Source: an uncultured Methylococcaceae bacterium
GTDB lineage: Bacteria; Pseudomonadota; Gammaproteobacteria; Methylococcales; Methylomonadaceae
NCBI GenBank assembly: GCA_903859415.1
Contig: CAIOMN010000010.1
Coordinates: 1-60,953, forward strand
Direction of reading: 5' to 3'
DNA length: 60,953 bases
Position numbers and translations under genes: made by a program
Shown here: positions 34,514 through 45,995 of the stretch, piece by piece
How positions within the stretch are numbered: position 1 is the first letter of the stretch
Layout: the number at the start of each line of letters is the position of its first letter
The notes under the pieces: model-generated
Told to the model about the DNA's origin: nothing
The model's database searches: none
What the model saw: only the letters and a program-made list of their open reading frames with translations

Positions 34514-35383
34514 TTAAGCGTCAACAGAGAGTGATGTTCTGATTTTTTTCATTGCATTTTGCTCAAGCTGTCGAATTCTCTCTGCAGAAACATTATAGCG
34601 CTCAGCTAACTCATGCAAAGTCGCCTTTTTATCGGCTAACCAGCGACTGGAAAGTATATCAAAACTTCGCTCATCCAGTTCAGCCATTGCATCTGACAAC
34701 AAATCTTGGCCATGCCCTTCCCAATCAGCGTTTTCAAGTATTACGGAAGGATCAGCTCCATATTGCTGAAGATAATTTGATGGATATGCAGCGCCGTCTT
34801 CTGCAGACTCATCTACTGGCATATCAAACGACATATCGTGACTACCTAAGCGTTTCTCCATCTCATAGACATCACTCAAATCAACATTTAAATCTTCTGC
34901 AATTGCCATAGCCTCGGTATTAGACAACCATCCTAAATCTTGTTTTGATTTACGTAGGTTAAAAAATAACTTACGTTGCGCCTTGGTCGTTGCAATCTTT
35001 ACAATGCCCCAGTTTTTAATCACATACTCATGAATTTCCGCTTTAATCCAATGCACAGCGAAAGAAACTAACCGCACACCAACATCAGGATCAAAACGTT
35101 TTACCGCTTTCATTAACCCAATATTACCTTCTTGAATAATATCAGGCATTGATAATCCATAACCACTATAACCTCTAGCAACATGCACTACAAAGCGTAA
35201 ATTAGTCATGACTAATTCACGAGCAGCATCTAAATCGCCTTGATCTCTGAATCTTAACGTTAAATCGCGCTCCTGTTCAGATGTCAATCTAGGCATCTGA
35301 CGAACTAAATTTAAATACGCATCAAATGTTCCAACAGATAAATTAATAGGTAAAGCTAATGCATTACTCATGACAACTCCCAA
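34514..35383 (-). CDS. rpoH: Heat-shock sigma factor sigma-32
   Basis: 289 residues, full family length. Region 2 contains DIIQEGNIGLMKAVKRFDP and FAVHWIKAEIHEYV. The RpoH box, QRKLFFNLRK, is present at about 136-145 and distinguishes it from other sigma-70 factors. Region 4.2 ends with ERIRQLEQNAMKKIR. It directs transcription of chaperones and proteases. The gene lies downstream of ftsX, 67 bp away, with its own candidate promoter overlapped by a CIRCE-like operator (35404-35430), which suggests HrcA repression in addition to any other control. Confidence 0.97.
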   Translation of the reverse strand: MGVVMSNALALPINLSVGTFDAYLNLVRQMPRLTSEQERDLTLRFRDQGDLDAARELVMTNLRFVVHVARGYSGYGLSMPDIIQEGNIGLMKAVKRFDPDVGVRLVSFAVHWIKAEIHEYVIKNWGIVKIATTKAQRKLFFNLRKSKQDLGWLSNTEAMAIAEDLNVDLSDVYEMEKRLGSHDMSFDMPVDESAEDGAAYPSNYLQQYGADPSVILENADWEGHGQDLLSDAMAELDERSFDILSSRWLADKKATLHELAERYNVSAERIRQLEQNAMKKIRTSLSVDA

Positions 35384-35450: not shown

Positions 35451-36470
35451 TTAACTGGCTTTAGTGTACTGAAGCTGAAAAAAAAGGACAGCCCAAGAAC
35501 CTAATACGCCCAGAAACGAAGACAAAAAGATTAACACAATAGTTTCTGTAAAATTTAAAAATAGTAAATGGAAGTTCCCACCATAAAGACCTGACAATTC
35601 TTCAACAGAATTATTTAATATCAACATCAATATCGCCACAATGAACCATGCTAATACACCTGAAATAAAACCAATCCAAAAGCCAGTGTATAAAAATGGC
35701 CGCCGTATAAAGGCATCAGTAGCGCCTACTAATTTTGAAATAACCACTTCATCACGTCGATTGTGTAATTCTAAACGCACAGAATTACCGACTATGAATA
35801 AGACGGCCGCTCCTAATAACACACTAAGCAAATTAGCAAAAAGACGTGCTAATGAAATAATCGATTGAAGACGCTCAACCCATTGTAAATCCATCTGGGC
35901 AAAATCCACCTCCGGTGATTGCTGAAAACTTTTCAATAATGCACTTAATGCTTCCTTATCATTTAATGCATTTTTAGGTAAAACTTGGAGCACAATGGGT
36001 AGTGGATTTGTTGCCAAGGCATTAATAGCGACACCAAAACCACTATAGGTTTTAAACTCTTCTAAAGCCTGTTCTTTGGTTATTAACTTTACCGATTTAA
36101 CATTATTATCCAACTTAATGCTATCAACTAATTTTTTAGCATGCGCATCTGAAACATCATCGCGCAAAAACAACGATATTTGATTACTCGTTTCTAAATT
36201 AGTCGTCAACTGCTGGAGATTGGATACCAAGATATAAAATCCACTAGCCAATGCAATAGCAATCGCTAAAACAGCGATAGTCATTATTGAAATAAATGGA
36301 GTAGCGACAAGTCGGCCCAAACTCGAAAACAAAGCATGAGCATGTTGATCACGATATGCATTTACTTTATCTGCAAAGTTACCACCCGCCAAAGCAGTCT
36401 GACGAATTTCCTGTTTTATTACTCTAACCGGTGGATCTTTCTTAATACGATTTTTGTTACCCCGTTTCAT
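35451..36470 (-). CDS. ftsX: Cell-division ABC transporter-like permease FtsX
   Basis: A 339-residue membrane protein with a cytoplasmic basic N-terminus, a first helix near residues 55-80, a large periplasmic domain (about 85-205) and three C-terminal helices with the FtsX-type segment LVGATDAFIRRPFLYTGFWIG. With FtsE it forms a membrane complex that activates septal peptidoglycan hydrolases through the periplasmic loop. It follows ftsE by 3 bp. Confidence 0.95.
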   Translation of the reverse strand: MKRGNKNRIKKDPPVRVIKQEIRQTALAGGNFADKVNAYRDQHAHALFSSLGRLVATPFISIMTIAVLAIAIALASGFYILVSNLQQLTTNLETSNQISLFLRDDVSDAHAKKLVDSIKLDNNVKSVKLITKEQALEEFKTYSGFGVAINALATNPLPIVLQVLPKNALNDKEALSALLKSFQQSPEVDFAQMDLQWVERLQSIISLARLFANLLSVLLGAAVLFIVGNSVRLELHNRRDEVVISKLVGATDAFIRRPFLYTGFWIGFISGVLAWFIVAILMLILNNSVEELSGLYGGNFHLLFLNFTETIVLIFLSSFLGVLGSWAVLFFQLQYTKAS

Positions 36471-36473
36471 ATT

Positions 36474-37130
36474 TTAACTCGAAACCAATTGACCATGATC
36501 TAATTTTAAAACACGGTGATTAAGTTGTGTAATTAATGAAATATCATGTGACGCAATTAAAATAGTCACTCCTACACGCTGAAACTGACCAAATAAAAAC
36601 ATAATTTCTTCTGACAAATCAGGGTCTAGATTACCCGTGGGTTCATCTGCAATGATAATAGGCGGCTTGTTAACCACTGCGCGAGCAATTCCTACCCGCT
36701 GTTGCTCTCCTCCGGAAAGAGCTAAAGGATATTTTTTTTCTTTACCTGTCAAACTGACCTTATCTAAGGCAGCCCTAACCCGCCGCGTCACTTCATGATG
36801 GCCATAACCCGCTATAACTAAAGGCAAAGCAACATTATCAAAAACTGTTCTATCGTGCAGCAACTTATAATCCTGATAGATAAACCCCATTTTTCTTCGT
36901 ATATAAGGCAATTGGCTTTCTTTAGCGAGACTTAAATCTTGCCCATCTAATAATATCTGGCCTCGACTAGACCGCTCCATCACTGCAATAAGTCTCAACA
37001 AAGTAGTTTTACCTGCACCAGAATGTCCCGTTAGGAACGCCATTTCACCACGCTGCAAATGAAAACTGATATTACGTAGTACATCGCCCGTCTCTGCATA
37101 ACGCTTGCTAACATTGACAAAATTTATCAT
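36474..37130 (-). CDS. ftsE: Cell-division ATP-binding protein FtsE
   Basis: A 218-residue ATPase with Walker [14 protein letters not shown], signature [14 protein letters not shown], and Walker [13 protein letters not shown]. The opening [11 protein letters not shown] and the segment [21 protein letters not shown] are typical of FtsE. It lies 6 bp after the CtaA-FtsY fusion and 3 bp before ftsX, preserving the conserved ftsY-ftsE-ftsX-rpoH order. Confidence 0.96.
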
Positions 37131-37136
37131 TACGTC

Positions 37137-39080
37137 CTAATCTTTAACAAATAAGGCATTAACAAATAATTCAGCATCAAAATCTTGTAAATCATCAATA
37201 CCCTCTCCTATACCAATAAATCGAATAGGAATGCCGGTATGTTTTGCCAATGCAAAAATGACCCCTCCTTTTGCAGTCCCATCTAATTTTGTTAAAACTA
37301 AACCTGTTAAAGCAACCGTTTCATTAAAAAGCTTTGCCTGGGACAAGGCATTTTGTCCAGTCCCAGCATCTAAAACCAACAAAACCTCATGAGGAGCCGA
37401 TTCATCCAGCTTACCCATAATGCGTTTAACCTTCTTCAACTCTTCCATTAAATTTGATTTAGTATGCAAACGCCCTGCGGTATCGGCAATTAACACATCG
37501 ATACCTTTAGCTTTTGCAGATTGCAGACCATCATAAATAACCGAAGCAGAATCCGCCCCCGTATGTTGTGCAACAACAGGGATACCGTTACGCTCACCCC
37601 AGACCTGTAACTGTTCAACCGCTGCGGCTCTAAACGTATCACCTGCGGCTAACATCACACTATGACCCTGCACCTGTAAACGCTTTGCCAATTTTCCAAT
37701 AGTTGTAGTCTTTCCAGCCCCATTAACACCTACTACCAAGATAACAAAAGGTGTATCTTGCTTGGGAATTTCGAGTGGTAAGCTACAGGGCGCCAGAACT
37801 CTAAGCAACTCCTGCTTTAATGCCGTTAACAAGGCATCACTATCCGTTAACTGGTGCTTCTCAAGACTTTTTGTTAAACGCCTGATAATTTCAGTAGTGG
37901 CATCAATCCCCACATCGGCCATCAGCAGGTTAGCTTCGATTTCTTCTAATAATTCATCATTAATTTCTTTTGAACCCAGTGGCAAACTTGATAATAAGCC
38001 ACTCAAGCCAGAACGAGTTCTTTTTAATTGTGATTTAAGACGTAAATACAAAGATTCAGGTAAAGCTTCTTCATTGGCTGGCTCAAGCTCAGCGGCAAAT
38101 GAAGTTCGCCGTTCTTGCAGTGGCTCACTCTGAGGAGGAACAACATGGACCGTTTCGACCCTACCATATCGACTATAAAAACTAATCGCCAACAACGGTA
38201 ACATCAGTATAGCTGCAAGGCATTGATGAAGAGGAACGAACCATAAGGGTAAGGAAAGTTTTGCGCTAATTACAGTTAAACCAATCAACGTAAACAACAG
38301 ACTGCCTAACCACAAACCCGCTGTTCTAACTGGCTTTAAAGAATTGATTGCTGTTGCACCAAACATCACGGCGCTTAGCAATACAAATACGAATAACGTA
38401 CTAACTCTATGGAGCTCATTGGCCGCGACCTGTGCCTCATAAGAAATAACGCCAGAATAACCTGTAAATAAGCCTCTCGTTAAATCCAGGGCGCTTAAAT
38501 AATCGCCTTGAGGCCACCATTGACCGTTACATTGTGGAAAACCAAGGCAGGCTAAGGCCGCATGATTAGCACTGACCCACACGCCCAGAATAACTTGTAG
38601 CCCTAACACAAACATGGCAAGGCGAGCTAAAAATATAAGCCCTTGACGTCTACCTTGATGGACCTTGATCGGCTCTACTGTTAATGGATTAGTCCGTAAA
38701 TACAATCCAAAAAGCAACCAAAAAGTTAGCATGCCTAATAAAACATGACCCGTCACGACAACCGGCATATTAATAACCGCTTTTGCCAAAGACCCAAGTA
38801 CAGCCTGAAAAATAATTAACAGCACTATCAGTAAAGAAGCTAAAATTGAAAACCGCTTATGATATTGCCGCCGCCAGGCTGTTAAAACCAAAATCAAAAC
38901 AGACAAACCTAGGGTTGCTGTTAGATAATGGTGAACAGCGCCTGTTAATAGTGCAATTAAATCCAACTTAAACAAGTCAGGAGCAATATCCGCTACTCTA
39001 ACCAATGAACCTGATACAACAATTATTAACATTAAAATAATGCTAAAGAGTGTTAACTTTCTAAACATTCTGTTTCCCAT
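37137..39080 (-). CDS. ftsY: Heme A synthase-like (CtaA/COX15) domain fused to SRP receptor FtsY
   Basis: One uninterrupted 647-codon frame. Residues 1-304 form an eight-helix CtaA-like domain with candidate heme histidines H50/H51, H112, H224 and H285, and the second-loop cysteines C178 and C184. The first periplasmic loop is very short and lacks the usual cysteine pair and the conserved glutamate before the first histidine. Residues 305-343 are an acidic, proline-containing linker. Residues 344-647 are a complete FtsY NG domain: GVNGAGKTTT (451-460), DTFRAAAVEQL (481-491), DTAGR (533-537), TKLD (597-600) and GIGEGIDDL (623-631). The CtaA part replaces the usual acidic A domain and would anchor FtsY in the membrane. 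The start overlaps the upstream cox gene as TAATG, and ftsE follows after 6 bp. A TTG at codon 344 (38049-38051) could in theory start a free FtsY but has no clear ribosome-binding site. Confidence 0.9.
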   Translation of the reverse strand: MGNRMFRKLTLFSIILMLIIVVSGSLVRVADIAPDLFKLDLIALLTGAVHHYLTATLGLSVLILVLTAWRRQYHKRFSILASLLIVLLIIFQAVLGSLAKAVINMPVVVTGHVLLGMLTFWLLFGLYLRTNPLTVEPIKVHQGRRQGLIFLARLAMFVLGLQVILGVWVSANHAALACLGFPQCNGQWWPQGDYLSALDLTRGLFTGYSGVISYEAQVAANELHRVSTLFVFVLLSAVMFGATAINSLKPVRTAGLWLGSLLFTLIGLTVISAKLSLPLWFVPLHQCLAAILMLPLLAISFYSRYGRVETVHVVPPQSEPLQERRTSFAAELEPANEEALPESLYLRLKSQLKRTRSGLSGLLSSLPLGSKEINDELLEEIEANLLMADVGIDATTEIIRRLTKSLEKHQLTDSDALLTALKQELLRVLAPCSLPLEIPKQDTPFVILVVGVNGAGKTTTIGKLAKRLQVQGHSVMLAAGDTFRAAAVEQLQVWGERNGIPVVAQHTGADSASVIYDGLQSAKAKGIDVLIADTAGRLHTKSNLMEELKKVKRIMGKLDESAPHEVLLVLDAGTGQNALSQAKLFNETVALTGLVLTKLDGTAKGGVIFALAKHTGIPIRFIGIGEGIDDLQDFDAELFVNALFVKD

Positions 39081-39817
39081 TAACCAATTTGTGAAATTCT
39101 AAGTAGATGCATAAGATCATCTTTTACCTTATAGGTATTAAAGCCTGGCTCATATTGCATCATTAAATTCCCCAAAGGATCGATTAAAAATAACATCCCA
39201 TCTGGAATATTTCCCCTCCTGATATCCAGCAATTTTTTTGTCAAATCGACACTTGGCTTAACTCTAATCAAGTCGGAATTAAGTGCAACGTCGCGGTTAT
39301 CATTAACAATTAATTTTTCTTTCAACGCCTCATCCAGATTATTTTCTTCATGCAATAAACTCGAATAAAGAGATTTACTCTCTTGATCTTCCAGACGATT
39401 TAACCTCCATAGCAAAGTATCTTTAAGCCACCATTGCTGAGCAACCTCTTGAGAAGGTTCTTTAAAGATAATGACCACACGCCGTGTGCGCGGTAACTCT
39501 TTATTCAACATAAGTCTTAGTTGTTTTGTTTTAAGCAACGCCTCTAAACAGACTTCATTACAACCACTATTTGGAATTACATTAACTATTAACCAATGAC
39601 CTGGTAATTCTCCAATATTGCTTGTTGAGAATGAATCAAACCCCGAAAAGTCAGAATGACTAATTGCCACGGAAGGAATAATTAGCTGCCCAGTATTGGT
39701 AGTCCCTTTTACTAAACTAGGATGTTCTTTCAATCCCCAAGCAATTAAAAATGGAATAATAGTCATTCCAAAAATAATAATAATTAAGCGCTGATTTTTC
39801 TTTTGTTGATTATTCAT
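39080..39817 (-). CDS. Cytochrome oxidase assembly-associated membrane protein, SCO/thioredoxin-like
   Basis: 245 residues. It has one N-terminal membrane helix (LIIIIFGMTIIPFLIAWGL), then a periplasmic domain with a strand-rich thioredoxin-like outline (LPGHWLIVNVIPNSGCNEVCLEALL). The GCNEVC pair could be a CxxxC metal or redox site as in SCO proteins. The C-terminus (PDGMLFLIDPLGNLMMQYEPG) also resembles SCO/thioredoxin folds. It occupies the position of the hypothetical gene found between SURF1 and ctaA in Pseudomonas cox clusters. Its exact role is unproven; copper or thiol handling during oxidase assembly is likely. Confidence 0.75.
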   Translation of the reverse strand: MNNQQKKNQRLIIIIFGMTIIPFLIAWGLKEHPSLVKGTTNTGQLIIPSVAISHSDFSGFDSFSTSNIGELPGHWLIVNVIPNSGCNEVCLEALLKTKQLRLMLNKELPRTRRVVIIFKEPSQEVAQQWWLKDTLLWRLNRLEDQESKSLYSSLLHEENNLDEALKEKLIVNDNRDVALNSDLIRVKPSVDLTKKLLDIRRGNIPDGMLFLIDPLGNLMMQYEPGFNTYKVKDDLMHLLRISQIG

Positions 39818-40550
39818 CTTTACTTCTTTTTATACTATACCAAAAAAATAGTGCGGTTAGAGTGGCTGCCAAGGCGAACCATTGAACAGCATAGGCTATA
39901 TGTTGTTCTGGCGGCATAATCGTTGTAACCTGCCATTCTCTTTTAAACCCTTCAGGCGACTCTTTATCCAACTCAATCTGAAATGCAGCTACTGGATAGC
40001 CGAGTTTTTCAGACAACACGCGAGCATCAATTACTTGTAAAACTGAAGGCCAACCTGATGTAGGTATTTCTGCCCCAGCTAACTTAATACCTACACCAGG
40101 AAAATTATTAATCCGTCCTTTTAAAGTAACTTTCCCATTTATAATGTTTATATCAGGCAATTGCGATCTATCCTGATTTAATGGTACCCAACCTCTATTA
40201 ACTAATACTGCTGCTTTTGATGGTCTATCCATAATAAAAGGCGTCATAACTAAATATCCGACCTTTCCACTAGTGATCTGATTATCCAGCAAAAACTGAT
40301 GTGCTTTATCATAATGCCCAACAGTTTGTACCTTTTTATATCTAAGCGAATTGATGTTATCTTCAATACTGTTCGATAGATCTAAAACCTCAGTTGATGC
40401 CAACCCCTGTTTTTGTTGCTCAAAAAAGTTTCTTTTCTGTTCGGCTCGACCTAATTGCCACATACCTAATGCTATCAATAGTGACAGGGTACATAGATAA
40501 AGAAATATAGGGAGTTTTTTTAGTTTCATTTGACTATTATATCCCTGCAT
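39810..40550 (-). CDS. SURF1-family cytochrome oxidase assembly protein
   Basis: 246 residues with one transmembrane helix at each end (LPIFLYLCTLSLLIALGMWQ and YAVQWFALAATLTALFFWY) and a periplasmic domain between them. Signatures are GMWQLGRAEQKR, VLVNRGWVP and the C-terminal HIAYAVQWFALA. SURF1 proteins help insert heme a into subunit I. The start is either codon 1 or the methionine at codon 8. The gene overlaps the next one by 8 bp, which suggests coupled translation. Confidence 0.93.
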   Translation of the reverse strand: MQGYNSQMKLKKLPIFLYLCTLSLLIALGMWQLGRAEQKRNFFEQQKQGLASTEVLDLSNSIEDNINSLRYKKVQTVGHYDKAHQFLLDNQITSGKVGYLVMTPFIMDRPSKAAVLVNRGWVPLNQDRSQLPDINIINGKVTLKGRINNFPGVGIKLAGAEIPTSGWPSVLQVIDARVLSEKLGYPVAAFQIELDKESPEGFKREWQVTTIMPPEQHIAYAVQWFALAATLTALFFWYSIKRSKDE

Positions 40551-40636
40551 AAAATCTAGCTTTTATATTTAACCTATTGGCACAAATGCGTTAATAAACG
40601 AAAATATGCAAATCCTTAATTATTAATAACTCTACC

Positions 40637-40894
40637 ATGATTCTTCAAAGCTTAGTCATAATTGCCTTTATCCTAATAATTATTAGCCTCGGCAAAGCAC
40701 TTTTTCATCTTGTAAACCATAAAACTGAAGAACAATCCCAAAAAACTGTCAAATCACTGACCTTTCGCATTACACTTTCAATTATTTTATTTATTTTTCT
40801 CTTTATTGCTGTTGCAACAGGCTTATTCAAACCCCATGGCCTCGGTTCAAAAATACATCTACAAAAACCAGTTCAAGTTGAAACAACTCAGTAA
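40637..40894 (+). CDS. DUF2909 twin-transmembrane protein
   Basis: 85 residues with two hydrophobic helices (residues about 3-25 and 48-68) joined by a polar loop containing KSLTFRITLSI. The family is small, of unknown function, and regularly found in gammaproteobacterial cox clusters between coxC and SURF1. Here it lies on the opposite strand from the rest of the cluster and is followed by a shared bidirectional terminator. It may assist the oxidase, but that rests only on location. Confidence 0.8.
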   Translation: MILQSLVIIAFILIIISLGKALFHLVNHKTEEQSQKTVKSLTFRITLSIILFIFLFIAVATGLFKPHGLGSKIHLQKPVQVETTQ

Positions 40895-40919
40895 ATCAAC
40901 AATCTTTCGACAAAAAAAA

Positions 40920-40945
40920 AGCGCCGCCTGTTCTTAGGCAGCGCT
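40920..40945. terminator. Bidirectional terminator between DUF2909 and coxC
   Basis: The hairpin AGCGCCGCCT-6 nt-AGGCAGCGCT has a single mismatch in a 10-bp stem. It is flanked by nine A residues on the left and a T5 run on the right, so it can stop transcripts from both convergent genes. Confidence 0.9.
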
Positions 40946-40967
40946 TTTTGTATTTTCGTTTAGAAAC

Positions 40968-41819
40968 TTACAATAAATAAACGAATATAAACAGACCTAA
41001 CCATACCACATCAACAAAGTGCCAATACCAAGCCGCCGCTTCAAATGCAAAATGGTTTTCTGGTTTGAAATGTCCTTTCACACTACGAAATAAAACTACA
41101 CTTAATATAATAGCACCCACGCAGACATGGAAACCATGGAATCCAGTTAACATAAAAAATGTCGATCCATAAACACCAGAACCTAAAGTTAACCCCATTT
41201 CGGTATAGGCTTCGTGATATTCGAATGCTTGAAACGCAACAAATAAAAAGCCTAAAGCGACTGTTGCAATCAAACCTTTAATTAACTGATCCCTATTTTT
41301 TGCCAACAAACCATGATGTGCCCAAGTACAAGTTACACCACTTGTTAATAAGATTAAAGTATTCAAAAAGGGTAAGCCCCATGCTCCCATCGGTTCAAAA
41401 TTACCACCCACTTTACCAGGACCATTAGTTGGCCATGCCGCTTCAAATGAAGGCCAAAGTAATTCTTTAGTAGCACCTTCACTTAACCAATGCACCGATA
41501 AATTACGTGTATACCAGAGTGTTCCAAAGAATACAGCAAAAAATACGATTTCTGAAAAAATAAACCACATCATGCCATGACGATAAGATATGCCTACCTC
41601 ATGGTTATACATTCCAGTTTCACTTTCAGTTGCTTGCAAAGTAAACCAACCAATCAGCATGGTAATGAAAATAAGTAAACCTATCACCATTAGAGCTGGA
41701 CCAATTGAAGAACCATTTAAATAATTTGCAAATCCAGCCAGCATAGTCACCAGACCTGCAGTGCCTATCACTGGCCAATTTGCTTTATGCGGAATGTAAT
41801 AAGCAGTATTCGTAGACAT
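40968..41819 (-). CDS. coxC: Cytochrome c oxidase subunit III (aa3 type)
   Basis: 283 residues with seven helices. Family signatures are the N-terminal YYIPHKANWPVIG, WFIFSEIVFFAVFFGTLWY, and the C-terminal FHGFHVCVGAIIL and WYWHFVDVVWLGLFIFVYL. Subunit III stabilises the catalytic core and the proton-uptake path. The gene follows ctaG by 12 bp in the usual coxB-coxA-ctaG-coxC order. Confidence 0.97.
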   Translation of the reverse strand: MSTNTAYYIPHKANWPVIGTAGLVTMLAGFANYLNGSSIGPALMVIGLLIFITMLIGWFTLQATESETGMYNHEVGISYRHGMMWFIFSEIVFFAVFFGTLWYTRNLSVHWLSEGATKELLWPSFEAAWPTNGPGKVGGNFEPMGAWGLPFLNTLILLTSGVTCTWAHHGLLAKNRDQLIKGLIATVALGFLFVAFQAFEYHEAYTEMGLTLGSGVYGSTFFMLTGFHGFHVCVGAIILSVVLFRSVKGHFKPENHFAFEAAAWYWHFVDVVWLGLFIFVYLL

Positions 41820-41831
41820 AAGATTCCCCTT

Positions 41832-42383
41832 TTATTTTTTTACTGATTTTTCAGTATTGTCGAAAAACGTGTATGAGAGTGTAATGGTTTTGTATTGCTC
41901 TGGTATTTCAGGATTAATAACAAAACGCATCGGGAGAGTTTTTGCTTCTCGGGGTTTAAAAGTTTGTTCCGAAAAACAGAAACACTCGATTTTTTCAAAA
42001 TAACTACTTATGACAGCTGGAGAAAAACTGGCGATTGCTCTAGCTTGCATCTCTTTATCAGATTTATTTTCAGCATAAAAATTCACCGTATAATATTGCC
42101 CTGGATGAACCTTTAATTGTCTTTTTTCTGCACGAAACTCCATCGGAGTTGACTCGTTCAATATTGTCATGAACTCCACTGAAATCTCCCTTTCCATGTC
42201 AACTTTATAAGCAACCTCTGGTACCTTTTTAATGTCATCGGGTCTATTTCGCTCAATCCATTTCCATTCACATAAAACATCGTAAAGAGGGACTAAAGCG
42301 TAACCAAAACCGAACATCGCTACCGCGACTAAAAGCAAGGTTCGCGCTAATTTAAGGTTCTTTTTACCTACAAAATCATTCAT
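41832..42383 (-). CDS. ctaG: Cytochrome c oxidase assembly protein CtaG/Cox11
   Basis: 183 residues. It has an N-terminal membrane helix (LLLVAVAMFGFGYALVPLYDVLC), a periplasmic immunoglobulin-like domain, and the copper-binding cysteines in IECFCFSEQTFKP, with MRFVINPEIP near the C-terminus. It delivers copper to the CuB site of subunit I. Its ATG overlaps the stop of the 32-codon membrane ORF directly upstream (ATGA), indicating coupled translation. Confidence 0.96.
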   Translation of the reverse strand: MNDFVGKKNLKLARTLLLVAVAMFGFGYALVPLYDVLCEWKWIERNRPDDIKKVPEVAYKVDMEREISVEFMTILNESTPMEFRAEKRQLKVHPGQYYTVNFYAENKSDKEMQARAIASFSPAVISSYFEKIECFCFSEQTFKPREAKTLPMRFVINPEIPEQYKTITLSYTFFDNTEKSVKK

Positions 42384-42478
42384 TGAGATACTGCTTGTGC
42401 GACAGCAAACAGATAAACAATTAAGGTGATAGCCACCAAAATAACAGCTGTTAACAGATTTTTATTTTTAGTTGTCAT
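42380..42478 (-). CDS. 32-residue single-helix protein, putative cytochrome oxidase small assembly protein
   Basis: This short gene lies between coxA and ctaG. It starts with ATG at 42476-42478 and ends with TGA at 42380-42382, overlapping the ctaG ATG by ATGA. The product starts MTTKNKNLLTAVILVAITL: a short basic N-terminus, then one hydrophobic helix (residues about 8-27) ending in a polar tail. Very small membrane proteins are annotated at this exact place in many proteobacterial cox clusters as cytochrome oxidase small assembly proteins. A weak AAGAA ribosome-binding site precedes it. Functional assignment is by position and form. Confidence 0.7.
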   Translation of the reverse strand: MTTKNKNLLTAVILVAITLIVYLFAVAQAVSQ

Positions 42479-42539
42479 ATTTCTTAAGTGGTACATTACC
42501 CAGTCATTCATATAACCAGGCAATGTATCCTTTTATGCC

Positions 42540-44180
42540 TTAATGTGAATCCAAAACGTGTTCAGTCGGCACAACACTTGGAGGTGTAGTCCAAGTATGG
42601 TAAGGAAGTGGTGATGGTAAAGTCCACTCTAAGCTATGCTTAGCCGCATCTTCCCAAACTTCGTCAGATACTTTTTCGCCAGTACCGCCTCTTATAGTGT
42701 CGATCACTATATACAAAAATAGCAATTGGCTTGCTCCAAATATAAAACCGCCCACGCTTGAAATCATATTCCAATCTGCAAATTGCACTGCATAATCAGG
42801 AATTCTGCGAGGCATTCCCGCTAATCCCAAGAAATGCTGAGGGAAAAACAATACGTTCACAGAAACCACTGAAATCCAAAAATGCAATTGGCCAATTTTC
42901 TCGTTATACATGTGACCCGTCCATTTAGGTAACCAGAAGTATCCCGCAGCCATCAGAATAAAAACCGAGGCGGGTACTAAGGTGTAGTGGAAATGGGCAA
43001 CAATGAAATAGGTATCATGGTATTGAAAATCAGCGGGGGCAATAGACATCATCAAACCAGTAAAACCACCCATGGTAAACAACACCACAAAAGCAATAGA
43101 AAACAACATAGGGGTTTCAAAGGTCATAGCCCCTTTCCACATAGTGGCTGTCCAGTTAAATACTTTAACACCTGTTGGAACCGCAATAATCATTGTCGCA
43201 TACATGAAATACAATTCACCGGCTAAAGGCAAACCGACAGTGAACATGTGATGCGCCCAAACGATAAAGGATAAAAAAGCAATAGAACCGGTTGCCCAAA
43301 CCATTGAAGCATAGCCAAACAAAGGCTTACGAGCAAATACTGGGATAATAGTAGATGCAACGCCGAAAGTTGGCAGAATCATAATATAAACTTCTGGGTG
43401 ACCAAAGAACCAGAAAATATGTTCATAAAGTACTGGGTCACCACCCCCTGCCGCATTAAAGAAGCTGGTATGGAAAAACTTATCAGTCAATAACATGGTC
43501 ACTGCACCTGCAAAAACAGGCATAACAGCAATTAACAAAAATGCGGTAATCAACCAAGTCCATACAAACAATGGCATATCCATCATTTTCATAGAAGGCG
43601 CACGCATATTGAAAATAGTCGCGATAATATTAATCGCGCCCATGATCGAAGAAATACCCAATAAATGTACAGAGAAAATAGCAAAAGGTAGCGCTTTACC
43701 CACTGTAATTGGTTGCAGTACTAATGGTGGATATAAAGTCCAGCCACCATTCGGAGCACCACCTTCCATGAATAGAGTACTGGCTAATAACAACACACCT
43801 GCAACCAACATCCAAAAACTCATGTTGTTCATACGAGGTAATGCCATATCAGCAGCACCAATCATTAATGGAATTTGCCAGTTAGCCAACCCCACAAAAG
43901 CAGGCATAACTGCACCAAATACCATGACTAACGCGTGCATAGTGGTCATGGAATTAAAAAATGCAGGATCTACAAACTGTAAACCTGGCTCAAATAATTC
44001 AGCCCGAATCACCATGGCCATTGCGCCACCGACAAAAAACATTGCTAAGGCAAACAATAAATACAATGTACCAATATCTTTATGGTTAGTAGTAATAACC
44101 CATCTTAACAACCCCTTAGCGGGACCGTGATCGTGATGATCATCAGCATGATGATCATGTTCATCTACGACAGCAGACAT
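42540..44180 (-). CDS. coxA: Cytochrome c oxidase subunit I (aa3 type)
   Basis: 546 residues with twelve helices. It carries the His-Tyr cross-link motif WFFGHPEVYIMILP, the CuB histidines in VWAHHMFTVGL, and the heme ligands in TMHALVMVFG and YFIVAHFHYTLV. The N-terminal tail is unusually histidine-rich (alternating H and D at residues 8-18), which could bind metal. It is the catalytic oxygen-reducing subunit. A GAGG ribosome-binding site stands before the ATG, and coxB lies 55 bp upstream. Confidence 0.98.
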   Translation of the reverse strand: MSAVVDEHDHHADDHHDHGPAKGLLRWVITTNHKDIGTLYLLFALAMFFVGGAMAMVIRAELFEPGLQFVDPAFFNSMTTMHALVMVFGAVMPAFVGLANWQIPLMIGAADMALPRMNNMSFWMLVAGVLLLASTLFMEGGAPNGGWTLYPPLVLQPITVGKALPFAIFSVHLLGISSIMGAINIIATIFNMRAPSMKMMDMPLFVWTWLITAFLLIAVMPVFAGAVTMLLTDKFFHTSFFNAAGGGDPVLYEHIFWFFGHPEVYIMILPTFGVASTIIPVFARKPLFGYASMVWATGSIAFLSFIVWAHHMFTVGLPLAGELYFMYATMIIAVPTGVKVFNWTATMWKGAMTFETPMLFSIAFVVLFTMGGFTGLMMSIAPADFQYHDTYFIVAHFHYTLVPASVFILMAAGYFWLPKWTGHMYNEKIGQLHFWISVVSVNVLFFPQHFLGLAGMPRRIPDYAVQFADWNMISSVGGFIFGASQLLFLYIVIDTIRGGTGEKVSDEVWEDAAKHSLEWTLPSPLPYHTWTTPPSVVPTEHVLDSH

Positions 44181-44235
44181 ACTTTATACCTCGAAAATAA
44201 TTAAAAAAGAGTGATTCGATAACAGCATCTGAGGC

Positions 44236-45357
44236 TTATTCATCATCATCGGGAAGTGCTGTTTGCTTAGGCTGTAATTCATCACCTACTTTATTACCCA
44301 AATTGTTACGCACGTAGGTCAACAGCTCAGCAACTTCTTTACCATTCAGCTTATCGAATTTTGGCATTTTTGAAGTACCAGCACGTAAGAAGCCATCCAA
44401 AGACTCCCATTTTCCTGTTGCAATTGCGCTACCTGTTAAAGCAGGAATTAAACCAGGGACGCCTGCACCATTAATTTGATGGCAGCCCACACAATTTTTT
44501 AAATAAACCGATTCACCATGTGTCAATAATTGCTGGGTAGTTTGATCACTTAAATCCGGCTTTTGCTTTTGTTGCTCTGAAGTCTTCTTAACCCAAGCAT
44601 CATAGTCAACTTGTTCCATAGCAATAACCACGATAGGCATAAAACCATGATCTCGGCCACACAACTCAGTACATTGACCGCGATAAGTGCCCGGTTTTTC
44701 TACATAAGTCGAAGCCTCATTTATAAAACCAGGATTAGCATCTTTTTTCCAACCAAAATCTGGCACCCACCATGAGTGAATAACATCAGTAGAAGTCAAA
44801 ACAAAGCGTACTTTTTTCTTGACTGGAATAACTAATGGCTTATCAACATTCAATAAGTAGTGAGGAACCGAACGTGGGTCAGCACCCGGTGTTCTATGTA
44901 CCTTTTCACTGGCTTCATCTAAATGACTTTCAAAGTGAATGTCGTTATCCAGATATTTATAATCCCAATACCATTGATGTCCAGTCACCTGAATAGTCAT
45001 GTCTGATTTATCAATATCACTCAACTCAAGCATTGTTTTGGTAGCAGGAATTGCCATACCAATTAAAATCAGAGTGGGTATAATGGTCCAGATAATTTCA
45101 ACAGTGGTATTCTCATGAAATTGAGCTGCTACATGTCCTTTTGATTTACGATGATGGTAAATCGAATAAAACATGGCACCAAATACACCAATGCCTATAA
45201 ATACACAGATCCACAGAATCAGCATATGCAGGTCATAAATGTCATTACTGACTTTTGTGACCCCTTTCATTAAATTGAGCGTATAGTCCGCATGCGCTGC
45301 CCCTAGCCCTAAAGCCATTAGGATCAGACCTGCGAATAGTTGCTTTGCTTTGTTCAC
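44236..45357 (-). CDS. coxB: Cytochrome c oxidase subunit II with C-terminal cytochrome c domain
   Basis: 373 residues. It has a signal peptide, two membrane helices (about 42-66 and 86-106), a cupredoxin domain with the CuA motif CTELCGRDHGFM plus the aromatic patch GHQWYWDY, and a C-terminal cytochrome c domain with heme site CVGCH and axial Met in SKMPKF. The fused cytochrome c marks a caa3/cbaA-like subunit II as found in Pseudomonas-type aa3 clusters. The start is a GTG at 45355-45357 with GAGG upstream. It is the first gene of the cox operon. Confidence 0.97.
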   Translation of the reverse strand: MNKAKQLFAGLILMALGLGAAHADYTLNLMKGVTKVSNDIYDLHMLILWICVFIGIGVFGAMFYSIYHHRKSKGHVAAQFHENTTVEIIWTIIPTLILIGMAIPATKTMLELSDIDKSDMTIQVTGHQWYWDYKYLDNDIHFESHLDEASEKVHRTPGADPRSVPHYLLNVDKPLVIPVKKKVRFVLTSTDVIHSWWVPDFGWKKDANPGFINEASTYVEKPGTYRGQCTELCGRDHGFMPIVVIAMEQVDYDAWVKKTSEQQKQKPDLSDQTTQQLLTHGESVYLKNCVGCHQINGAGVPGLIPALTGSAIATGKWESLDGFLRAGTSKMPKFDKLNGKEVAELLTYVRNNLGNKVGDELQPKQTALPDDDE

Positions 45358-45596: not shown

Positions 45597-45995
45597 TCAA
45601 CTGTTTAATGCTTCCGCATACGCTTTATCGAAAGTAGGAATGTGGTGTTCTAACCAACCTTTTACTAATTGGCCCACTTCTTCGGTTACTTCAGCCTCAC
45701 CTGCATGAAATTTGGTCTGTAAACCACCACAGATTCCAACTAAAGCAACATGCTCTGCTTTGTGAGCATCATATGCAGAGTAGTTTTTAGCTATCATTTC
45801 TTTCTCTTCATGTTCGAAATGACCAACCACATAAGCAATCAAATCATCCAATTGCACGCCAACTGCTGATCGTTCGGCACCACCGACGGCCAAGTCATAT
45901 AATTTATTCAGCTTATCAAATAAAACTTTATGTTCTTCGTCAGCAAAACCAACATTAGTACCGAATTGATCAGCTGTCCACGTAATTAAAGCCAT
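45597..45995 (-). CDS. Bacteriohemerythrin
   Basis: A 132-residue four-helix oxygen-binding protein with a diiron site. Ligand motifs are DEEHKVLFDKLN (His and nearby Glu), HFEHEEKEM, HKAEH and the final HHIPTFDKAYAE. Length and sequence closely recall the single-domain hemerythrin of Methylococcus capsulatus, which is proposed to supply oxygen to methane monooxygenase. It sits just downstream of the cox promoter region but has its own AGGAG ribosome-binding site and terminator. An oxygen storage or delivery role is inferred from the family. Confidence 0.95.
   Translation of the reverse strand: MALITWTADQFGTNVGFADEEHKVLFDKLNKLYDLAVGGAERSAVGVQLDDLIAYVVGHFEHEEKEMIAKNYSAYDAHKAEHVALVGICGGLQTKFHAGEAEVTEEVGQLVKGWLEHHIPTFDKAYAEALNS

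Follow-up and report, generated by a model that had tools for sequence, protein, structure and literature searches.

FtsY, the receptor of the signal recognition particle, is found throughout bacteria and its binding to the membrane is normally reversible. To our knowledge the need for FtsY to cycle on and off the membrane has long been debated, and has so far been addressed with constructs. The locus studied here raises the question of why such a receptor should be joined in one reading frame to heme A synthase (CtaA), and what the two halves would then do. The window, i.e. the whole stretch of DNA that was analysed, comprises 60,953 nucleotides from an uncultured Methylococcaceae bacterium whose genome is a draft of 280 contigs, 99.94% complete. 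We consider it very probable that the fusion is a constitutively membrane-tethered and sole FtsY, that it is anchored by what was once the heme A synthase of the cox cluster, now retired, and that it originated once by an inversion. Many wild species would therefore carry a receptor that is predicted to be unable to leave the membrane.

A single reading frame encoding CtaA and FtsY

The gene is one open frame of 647 codons on the minus strand (37137..39080), with Pfam and NCBIfam matches to both families. COX15-CtaA is matched at residues 49-294 with 85.8 bits against a Pfam cut-off of 29.9, and SRP54_N and SRP54 at residues 359-425 and 444-644 respectively. The NCBIfam equivalog for FtsY (TIGR00064) scores 362.4 bits with a cut-off of 260.7, and the Ffh model falls under its own cut-off. 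The in-frame fusion of the original prediction is thus confirmed, and it recurs in relatives. These align from residue 1-5 and their consensus begins MFRK, so that translation may start at Met5 (39068).

The fusion gene is flanked by the cox cluster and by ftsE-ftsX-rpoH, all on the same strand. The cox cluster lies upstream and has six genes (39080..45357, minus strand), which we take to be coxB, coxA, ctaG, coxC, surf1 and the gene for a 245-aa cox-linked protein; relatives show the same order. On the other side are ftsE (36474..37130), named from similarity and context, ftsX (35451..36470) and rpoH (34514..35383), all on the minus strand and in an order that recurs in relatives. A 132-aa ORF lies before coxB at 45597-45995, and we take it to resemble bacteriohemerythrin.

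The AlphaFold2 model of the whole fusion was based on six fusions and 11 NG-only proteins (alignment A2; mean pLDDT 78.5). It has eight long helices, the first at residues 2-32 and the last at 281-305. Residues 306-343 form a linker without order, after which the NG domain is folded. With a pTM of 0.48 the model leaves the mutual placement of the two halves unfixed. From the predicted helices and the residue comparison described below, helices 1-4 (the N bundle, residues 2-130; 38691..39077, minus strand) appear to be the former heme O substrate and catalytic half of the enzyme, and helices 5-8 (the C bundle, residues 143-305; 38166..38654, minus strand) the predicted heme-b half. When the CtaA domain was modelled separately from six sequences (mean pLDDT 73.5) the sole PDB match at E<=0.001 was 6a2j, the heme A synthase of B. 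subtilis (E 4.6e-4, TM 0.56).

The NG GTPase, identified by Pfam, NCBIfam and Foldseek, occupies residues 344-647 (37140..38051, minus strand) and includes the membrane-binding first helix, in which R347, L348, L352, T355 and R356 are invariant in 16 fusions (alignment A1). The NG model matches E. coli FtsY (7o9h_A) with TM 0.95 by target and 62% identity (Foldseek). Its sequence contains GVNGAGKTTT, DTFRAAA, DTAGR and TKLD, which we take to be the GTPase motifs of FtsY. The linker of 38 residues (306-343; 38052..38165, minus strand) is predicted to be cytoplasmic and evolves fast, with pLDDT under 50 across 310-340; residues 303-343 include 8 Asp/Glu and 4 Lys/Arg. The acidic A domain that is typical (though not universal) of FtsY is missing, and CtaA occupies its position.

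Using loop limits set by hand, we counted 14 Lys and Arg residues in the predicted cytoplasmic loops versus 4 in the predicted periplasmic loops, matching expectation for both ends being cytoplasmic. The eight-helix anchor would therefore hold the GTPase at the cytoplasmic face of the membrane. An eight-helix domain preceding NG supports the permanent anchoring that was originally proposed, itself a prediction. The first mode of membrane contact of FtsY would be replaced by the CtaA anchor, with the second, helical one conserved. An FtsY tethered by a transmembrane segment is functional in vivo (Zelazny 1997, as cited in PMC2780400).

No second FtsY in the genome, and a fusion widespread in the order

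A second, separate ftsY was sought in the genome of the window and none was found. There are two SRP54-GTPase matches, one the fusion and the other a 476-aa frame that matches as Ffh.

In the same genus 30 of 35 genomes (that of the window included) give a single alignment spanning essentially the whole fusion; the remaining five (G003, G018, G020, G022 and G033) match partially. We numbered the families f1 to f8. Over families f1-f6 the COX15-CtaA match of Pfam lies inside a frame of at least 560 aa in 95 of 111 genomes; 59 of these loci were extracted and all hold an NG domain. For f2-f6 the proportion is 51/54, the exceptions being G271 (a frame break), G278, and G286 (contig ends). Family f1, for which genomes were picked by hand so that every genus was represented and weak cases were included, has a fused CtaA in 44/57, with three cut at contig ends and 10 giving no fused match. 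Two of the f1 genomes that lack a fused Pfam match, G041 and G089, still match the fusion protein at E 1e-173 and 1e-168. The 20 genomes of families f7 and f8 have 15 complete standalone CtaA frames of 325-350 aa and two partial ones, with none in three.

Indels or stops in the linker were looked for in 64 extracted loci, as the original prediction had suggested for the window. One locus has a frame break there: in L221 of G271 the CtaA frame overlaps at the linker with an FtsY frame that is read in another phase. The other 63 are continuous fusions. The break in G271 is either a sequencing error or a true split. G278, a genome 89% complete, has a 370-aa CtaA frame with no adjoining FtsY; it resembles the additional CtaA of its congener G267, but may instead be the product of a fission. 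In G065 (f1; 5.0 Mb, 100% complete) no match of FtsY strength was found, the best having E 1.5e-43, probably because of an assembly gap.

Searches were extended to the class (369 genomes) and the phylum (398 genomes). Among the matches listed, joint matches to both domains were confined to the order members G000 (the genome of the window), G044 and G217 in the first and to G000 in the second; no fusion was seen outside the order among these matches, several of which lie in long open frames (for example G561, 944; G383, 993; G796, 837), so that absence from other orders is provisional. Among the matches listed for named genomes 80 loci were kept, of which five are fusions and 75 align solely within FtsY, starting no earlier than residue 244. 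The five are Crenothrix polyspora, two Methylomonas, a Methylococcales MAG and a Methylothermaceae MAG. We call the order Methylococcales because NCBI places Crenothrix, Methylomonas and Methylothermaceae there.

Gene order and the origin of the fusion

In a tree of 101 FtsY NG domains (IQ-TREE), whose bootstrap was incompletely settled, all 63 fusions group together with support of 94/94, a grouping present in 97% of 200 bootstrap trees. Family f8 is placed next to the fusions (99/92) and f7 outside. The tree of the CtaA half does not unite the fusions, as unfused sisters nest with the fused G218 (100/99), and in a 70-row FtsY tree lacking outgroups the long-branch fused G216 joins the unfused sequences (92/87). 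The placements of G218 and G216 are perhaps effects of very unequal rates. A single fusion event would be later than the split from the two sister families.

The unfused relatives indicate how the genes were arranged previously. In eight of nine unfused genomes inspected the cox cluster ends facing rpoH, with the two in convergent orientation. The convergent arrangement is complete up to ftsY in G246, G231, G226, G252 and G240, and also in G221 with two extra ORFs between; in G243 it extends to the end of the stretch, and in G234 it is seen with rpoH alone. In the ninth genome (G220) the cox and ftsY clusters are on different contigs. It had been proposed that the fusion couples the conserved cox and ftsY-ftsE-ftsX-rpoH clusters. 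They are indeed linked, but the fusion is not what brought them together, since they are already convergent neighbours in most of the unfused sisters inspected. The full order in G252 and G240 is surf1-hyp245-ctaA-ctaB-f183> <rpoH-ftsX-ftsE-ftsY M16-M16-rsmD-coaD>. M16, rsmD or coaD is found divergently upstream of ftsY in 66/75 of the unfused named loci (among the matches listed), from which the f7/f8 order is taken to be the older.

Family f6 has a different arrangement. All eight loci read ctaA-ftsY-ftsE-ftsX-rpoH> <ctaB (ftsE and ftsX where labelled), and in seven of them M16-M16-rsmD-coaD> lies beyond ctaB, the eighth stopping at a contig end. This is the order expected from inversion of [ctaB...ftsY]. 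We therefore suggest that a segment beginning at ctaB and ending within the 5' region of ftsY was inverted, which would set NG in frame behind ctaA and replace the usual acidic A domain of FtsY by CtaA. In the other fused families ctaB is no longer seen after rpoH in the stretches read.

Three Vibrio genomes have ctaB downstream of ftsY-ftsE-ftsX-rpoH, and in a Thiobacillus MAG coxB converges on rpoH (L319, L327, L331 and L359 for the four together). The proximity of cox genes to ftsY may thus predate the order Methylococcales.

Loss of the catalytic site and retention of the heme-b ligands

In heme A synthase the N bundle binds the substrate heme O (E57, H60 and H123 in the B. subtilis enzyme) and the C bundle binds heme b (H216 and H278) (PMC7327177, PMC12808453). 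These residues, the histidines here termed H1 to H4, were located from the E-x-x-H-R motif and by aligning the sequences with 8aw5 and 6a2j. In the window the catalytic glutamate is replaced by Gly47, and the histidine pair of the substrate heme is kept as His50 and His112. The first cysteine pair (of types B and C) is absent there, its members C1 and C2 being kept in 52/63 and 51/63 fusions. The predicted heme-b ligands His224 (H3; 38409..38411) and His285 (H4; 38226..38228) are present, as is a predicted periplasmic pair, Cys178 and Cys184, in the loop before helix 6 (38529..38549; all minus strand). These four residues are invariant in alignment A1.

All 14 unfused CtaA sequences retain the glutamate and the four histidines. 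Among the 63 fusions the glutamate is kept in 22, H1 in 39 and H2 in 43, compared with 59 for H3, 62 for H4 and 60 for the second cysteine pair. The glutamate, H1 or H2 is lost in 46, the window included (45 if G066, with Ns at these positions, is omitted), and in 42 of these 46 both H3 and H4 survive despite the broken N site. Just four fusions have lost H3 or H4 (G175, G180, G151 and G058). This retention could reflect folding of the bundle rather than function.

The remaining 17 fusions keep the glutamate and all four histidines, so enzyme activity may persist in those. On the 70-row tree the label intact or decayed changes 15 times, at least five of the changes being forced by well supported branches; decay was therefore repeated. 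Annotation pipelines that count these fusions as heme A synthase would be misled.

The genome of the window has a second, separate CtaA, a 339-aa frame on contig 106 outside any cox cluster. This copy (L234:6015-6995) has Asn at H1 and lacks the second cysteine pair. The ORFs beside it presumably encode relatives of YgfZ, HflX, HflK and HflC. All 26 second copies taken from fused genomes keep the glutamate, H2, H3 and H4, have Asn at H1 (26/26), and lack the second cysteine pair. An H60N class appears in a table of PMC8239418. In genus g45 there are further standalone CtaA frames besides the fused and second copies (G267 C13:504126-505070; L271 of G278).

In three genomes the fused CtaA is the only copy found and its site is complete, i.e. 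G218 (94% complete), G054 (99%) and G287 (83%). G228 (85% complete) also has the fused copy only, with a middling score (123 bits), which would speak against any simple dependence of decay on having another CtaA.

Selection on the fused domain

The sequence of the window was compared with three congeners. The dN/dS ratio was 0.22-0.28 in the N half and 0.09-0.17 in the C half of CtaA, 1.06-1.35 in the linker and 0.03-0.05 in NG, where the boundaries of the halves are approximate, being fixed offsets from the NG start. The fused CtaA domain is still under purifying selection. Of 23 fused pairs, 22 have a greater dN in the N half than in the C half, the exception being G175/G180, both of which lack H3. 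The reverse is found in unfused f7 pairs, with dN smaller in the N half in 27/28; pairs in both sets are non-independent.

Counting helices by hydropathy in the 63 fusions gave eight in 48, seven in 12, six in two, and five in G066 (which contains Ns). All six loci of genus g13 have six helices, with helices 2 and 3 missing. Deletion of two helices would keep the topology, so that the GTPase stays cytoplasmic. Taken with the selection data, this deletion indicates that the membrane part is maintained without a catalytic site.

The sequence of events may have been as follows. Once fused, the receptor would have become an essential cargo of the enzyme. The substrate and catalytic half would then have lost key residues in most lineages, usually with another CtaA in the genome, with the parity of helix number and the heme-b half retained during decay. 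If so, the conversion of an enzyme into a structural anchor can be followed in living genomes, which include the separate convergent genes, the likely footprint of the inversion and the stages of decay.

Possible roles of the CtaA domain

The original prediction offered a simple anchor as one reading of the fusion. This fits better than a role in heme A synthesis, but retention of the heme-b half in 59/63 fusions leaves room for a role linked to heme. The conserved ligands suggest that the anchor possibly still carries heme b. Bound heme b might stabilize the anchor, or report the state of heme or redox to the GTPase and so tune insertion, a reading we hold only tentatively and think on the whole rather unlikely. 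No other part of the domain is as well preserved as H3, H4 and the periplasmic cysteine pair, the C half has the lower dN/dS, and both histidines survive in nearly all fusions with a broken catalytic half. Yet a path for such a signal is invisible, the linker being disordered and nearly neutral in close relatives, four members persist despite the loss of H3 or H4, and a similar pattern is expected from structural conservation. A more specific form of this idea, in which heme b occupancy or redox state of the C bundle together with the periplasmic cysteine pair would regulate receptor clustering or GTPase cycling, making this a hemoprotein SRP receptor, is in our judgement unlikely. With the heme-b half retained, the part played by heme in protein targeting could be tested directly. 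If such a heme-regulated receptor were real, insertion of membrane proteins in these methane oxidisers would depend on heme supply or on the state of respiration.

The fused domain might instead still make heme A, coupling its supply to insertion of the subunits of cytochrome oxidase. The 17 complete sites are consistent with this, as are G218 and G054, where the fused CtaA is the only copy and is complete, and of 24 fused genomes tested 22 have kept ctaB. We nevertheless regard it as improbable for the fusions generally, given the loss of the glutamate, H1 or H2 in 46/63 and the shift of constraint off the catalytic half. An active synthase in the window was considered and judged unlikely, because of Gly47, the lost cysteine pair and the shifted constraint; it stays a rival for fusions of the G054 and G218 types. 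The suggestion that the fusion places insertion beside heme A synthesis is similarly weak here, where a separate CtaA exists.

The two halves might alternatively act apart, if proteolysis in the linker or internal initiation freed a normal soluble or peripheral FtsY. The disorder and fast evolution of the linker would be compatible with cleavage, and a title cited by PMC2780400 describes the N-terminal anchor of FtsY in E. coli as cleavable. We searched for internal starts. An ATG between helix 8 and NG+12 occurs in 7/63 fusions and not in the window, so that a conserved internal start was not found; between helix 8 and NG the window gene has one in-frame TTG only, with no Shine-Dalgarno-like motif, which bears out the earlier view that a good internal start is lacking. 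Moreover the membrane half remains selected after catalytic loss, and the parity-keeping deletion of two helices fits a working anchor. If the fusion were unimportant more fissions would be expected than the single linker break in 64 loci. Separate action of the halves is therefore quite improbable in our view.

An assembly or frameshift artefact, which the draft state of the 280-contig genome might have suggested, can be dismissed almost entirely, since recurrence of the fusion in other genomes rules out local misassembly, and these include the single-contig assemblies G011 and G217, multi-megabase contigs in G044 and G057, and the five named records.

Comparison with known systems

A tethered FtsY with a retired heme A synthase as its anchor, the reading we prefer, has partial parallels elsewhere. 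The fusion resembles FtsY of the TIGR00064 family in having a complete NG domain with its membrane-binding first helix, in being present as a sole copy and in being followed by ftsE-ftsX-rpoH, but it differs in that an eight-helix membrane enzyme domain replaces the acidic A domain. Gram-positives and archaea are known to have FtsY proteins that carry a true transmembrane helix (PMC2780400), yet the anchor there is not a polytopic enzyme. The laboratory construct with a tethered NG likewise has this domain permanently held by an unrelated membrane protein, whereas the methanotroph fusion is natural and fixed across much of an order. In eukaryotes SR-alpha is anchored by SR-beta (PMC2780400), so that there too the receptor GTPase is permanently held by an integral membrane partner; SR-beta is however a separate subunit with its own GTPase, where here a heme enzyme is in the same chain. 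We found no description of a CtaA/COX15-FtsY fusion in the PMC open-access subset, and as far as the open-access literature goes this is an unrecorded architecture. We class it as FtsY whose anchor is of a new kind, one that descends from heme A synthase but in the window has probably ceased to be such an enzyme.

Fusions of CtaA with CtaB, i.e. of heme A synthase with heme O synthase, exist (PMC8239418, PMC12808453). They also join a CtaA domain to a second protein, but their partner is the preceding enzyme of the pathway rather than a universal protein-targeting GTPase. The domain studied here shares with CtaA/COX15 proteins the eight helices, the location in a cox cluster, the heme-b histidine pair, the second cysteine pair and the fold match to 6a2j. 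Unlike them, the fusion of the window lacks the catalytic glutamate and the first cysteine pair, and catalytic residues are lost in most of the fusions sampled. Judged from the unfused sisters, the CtaA type concerned is the one with two cysteine pairs (B/1.1).
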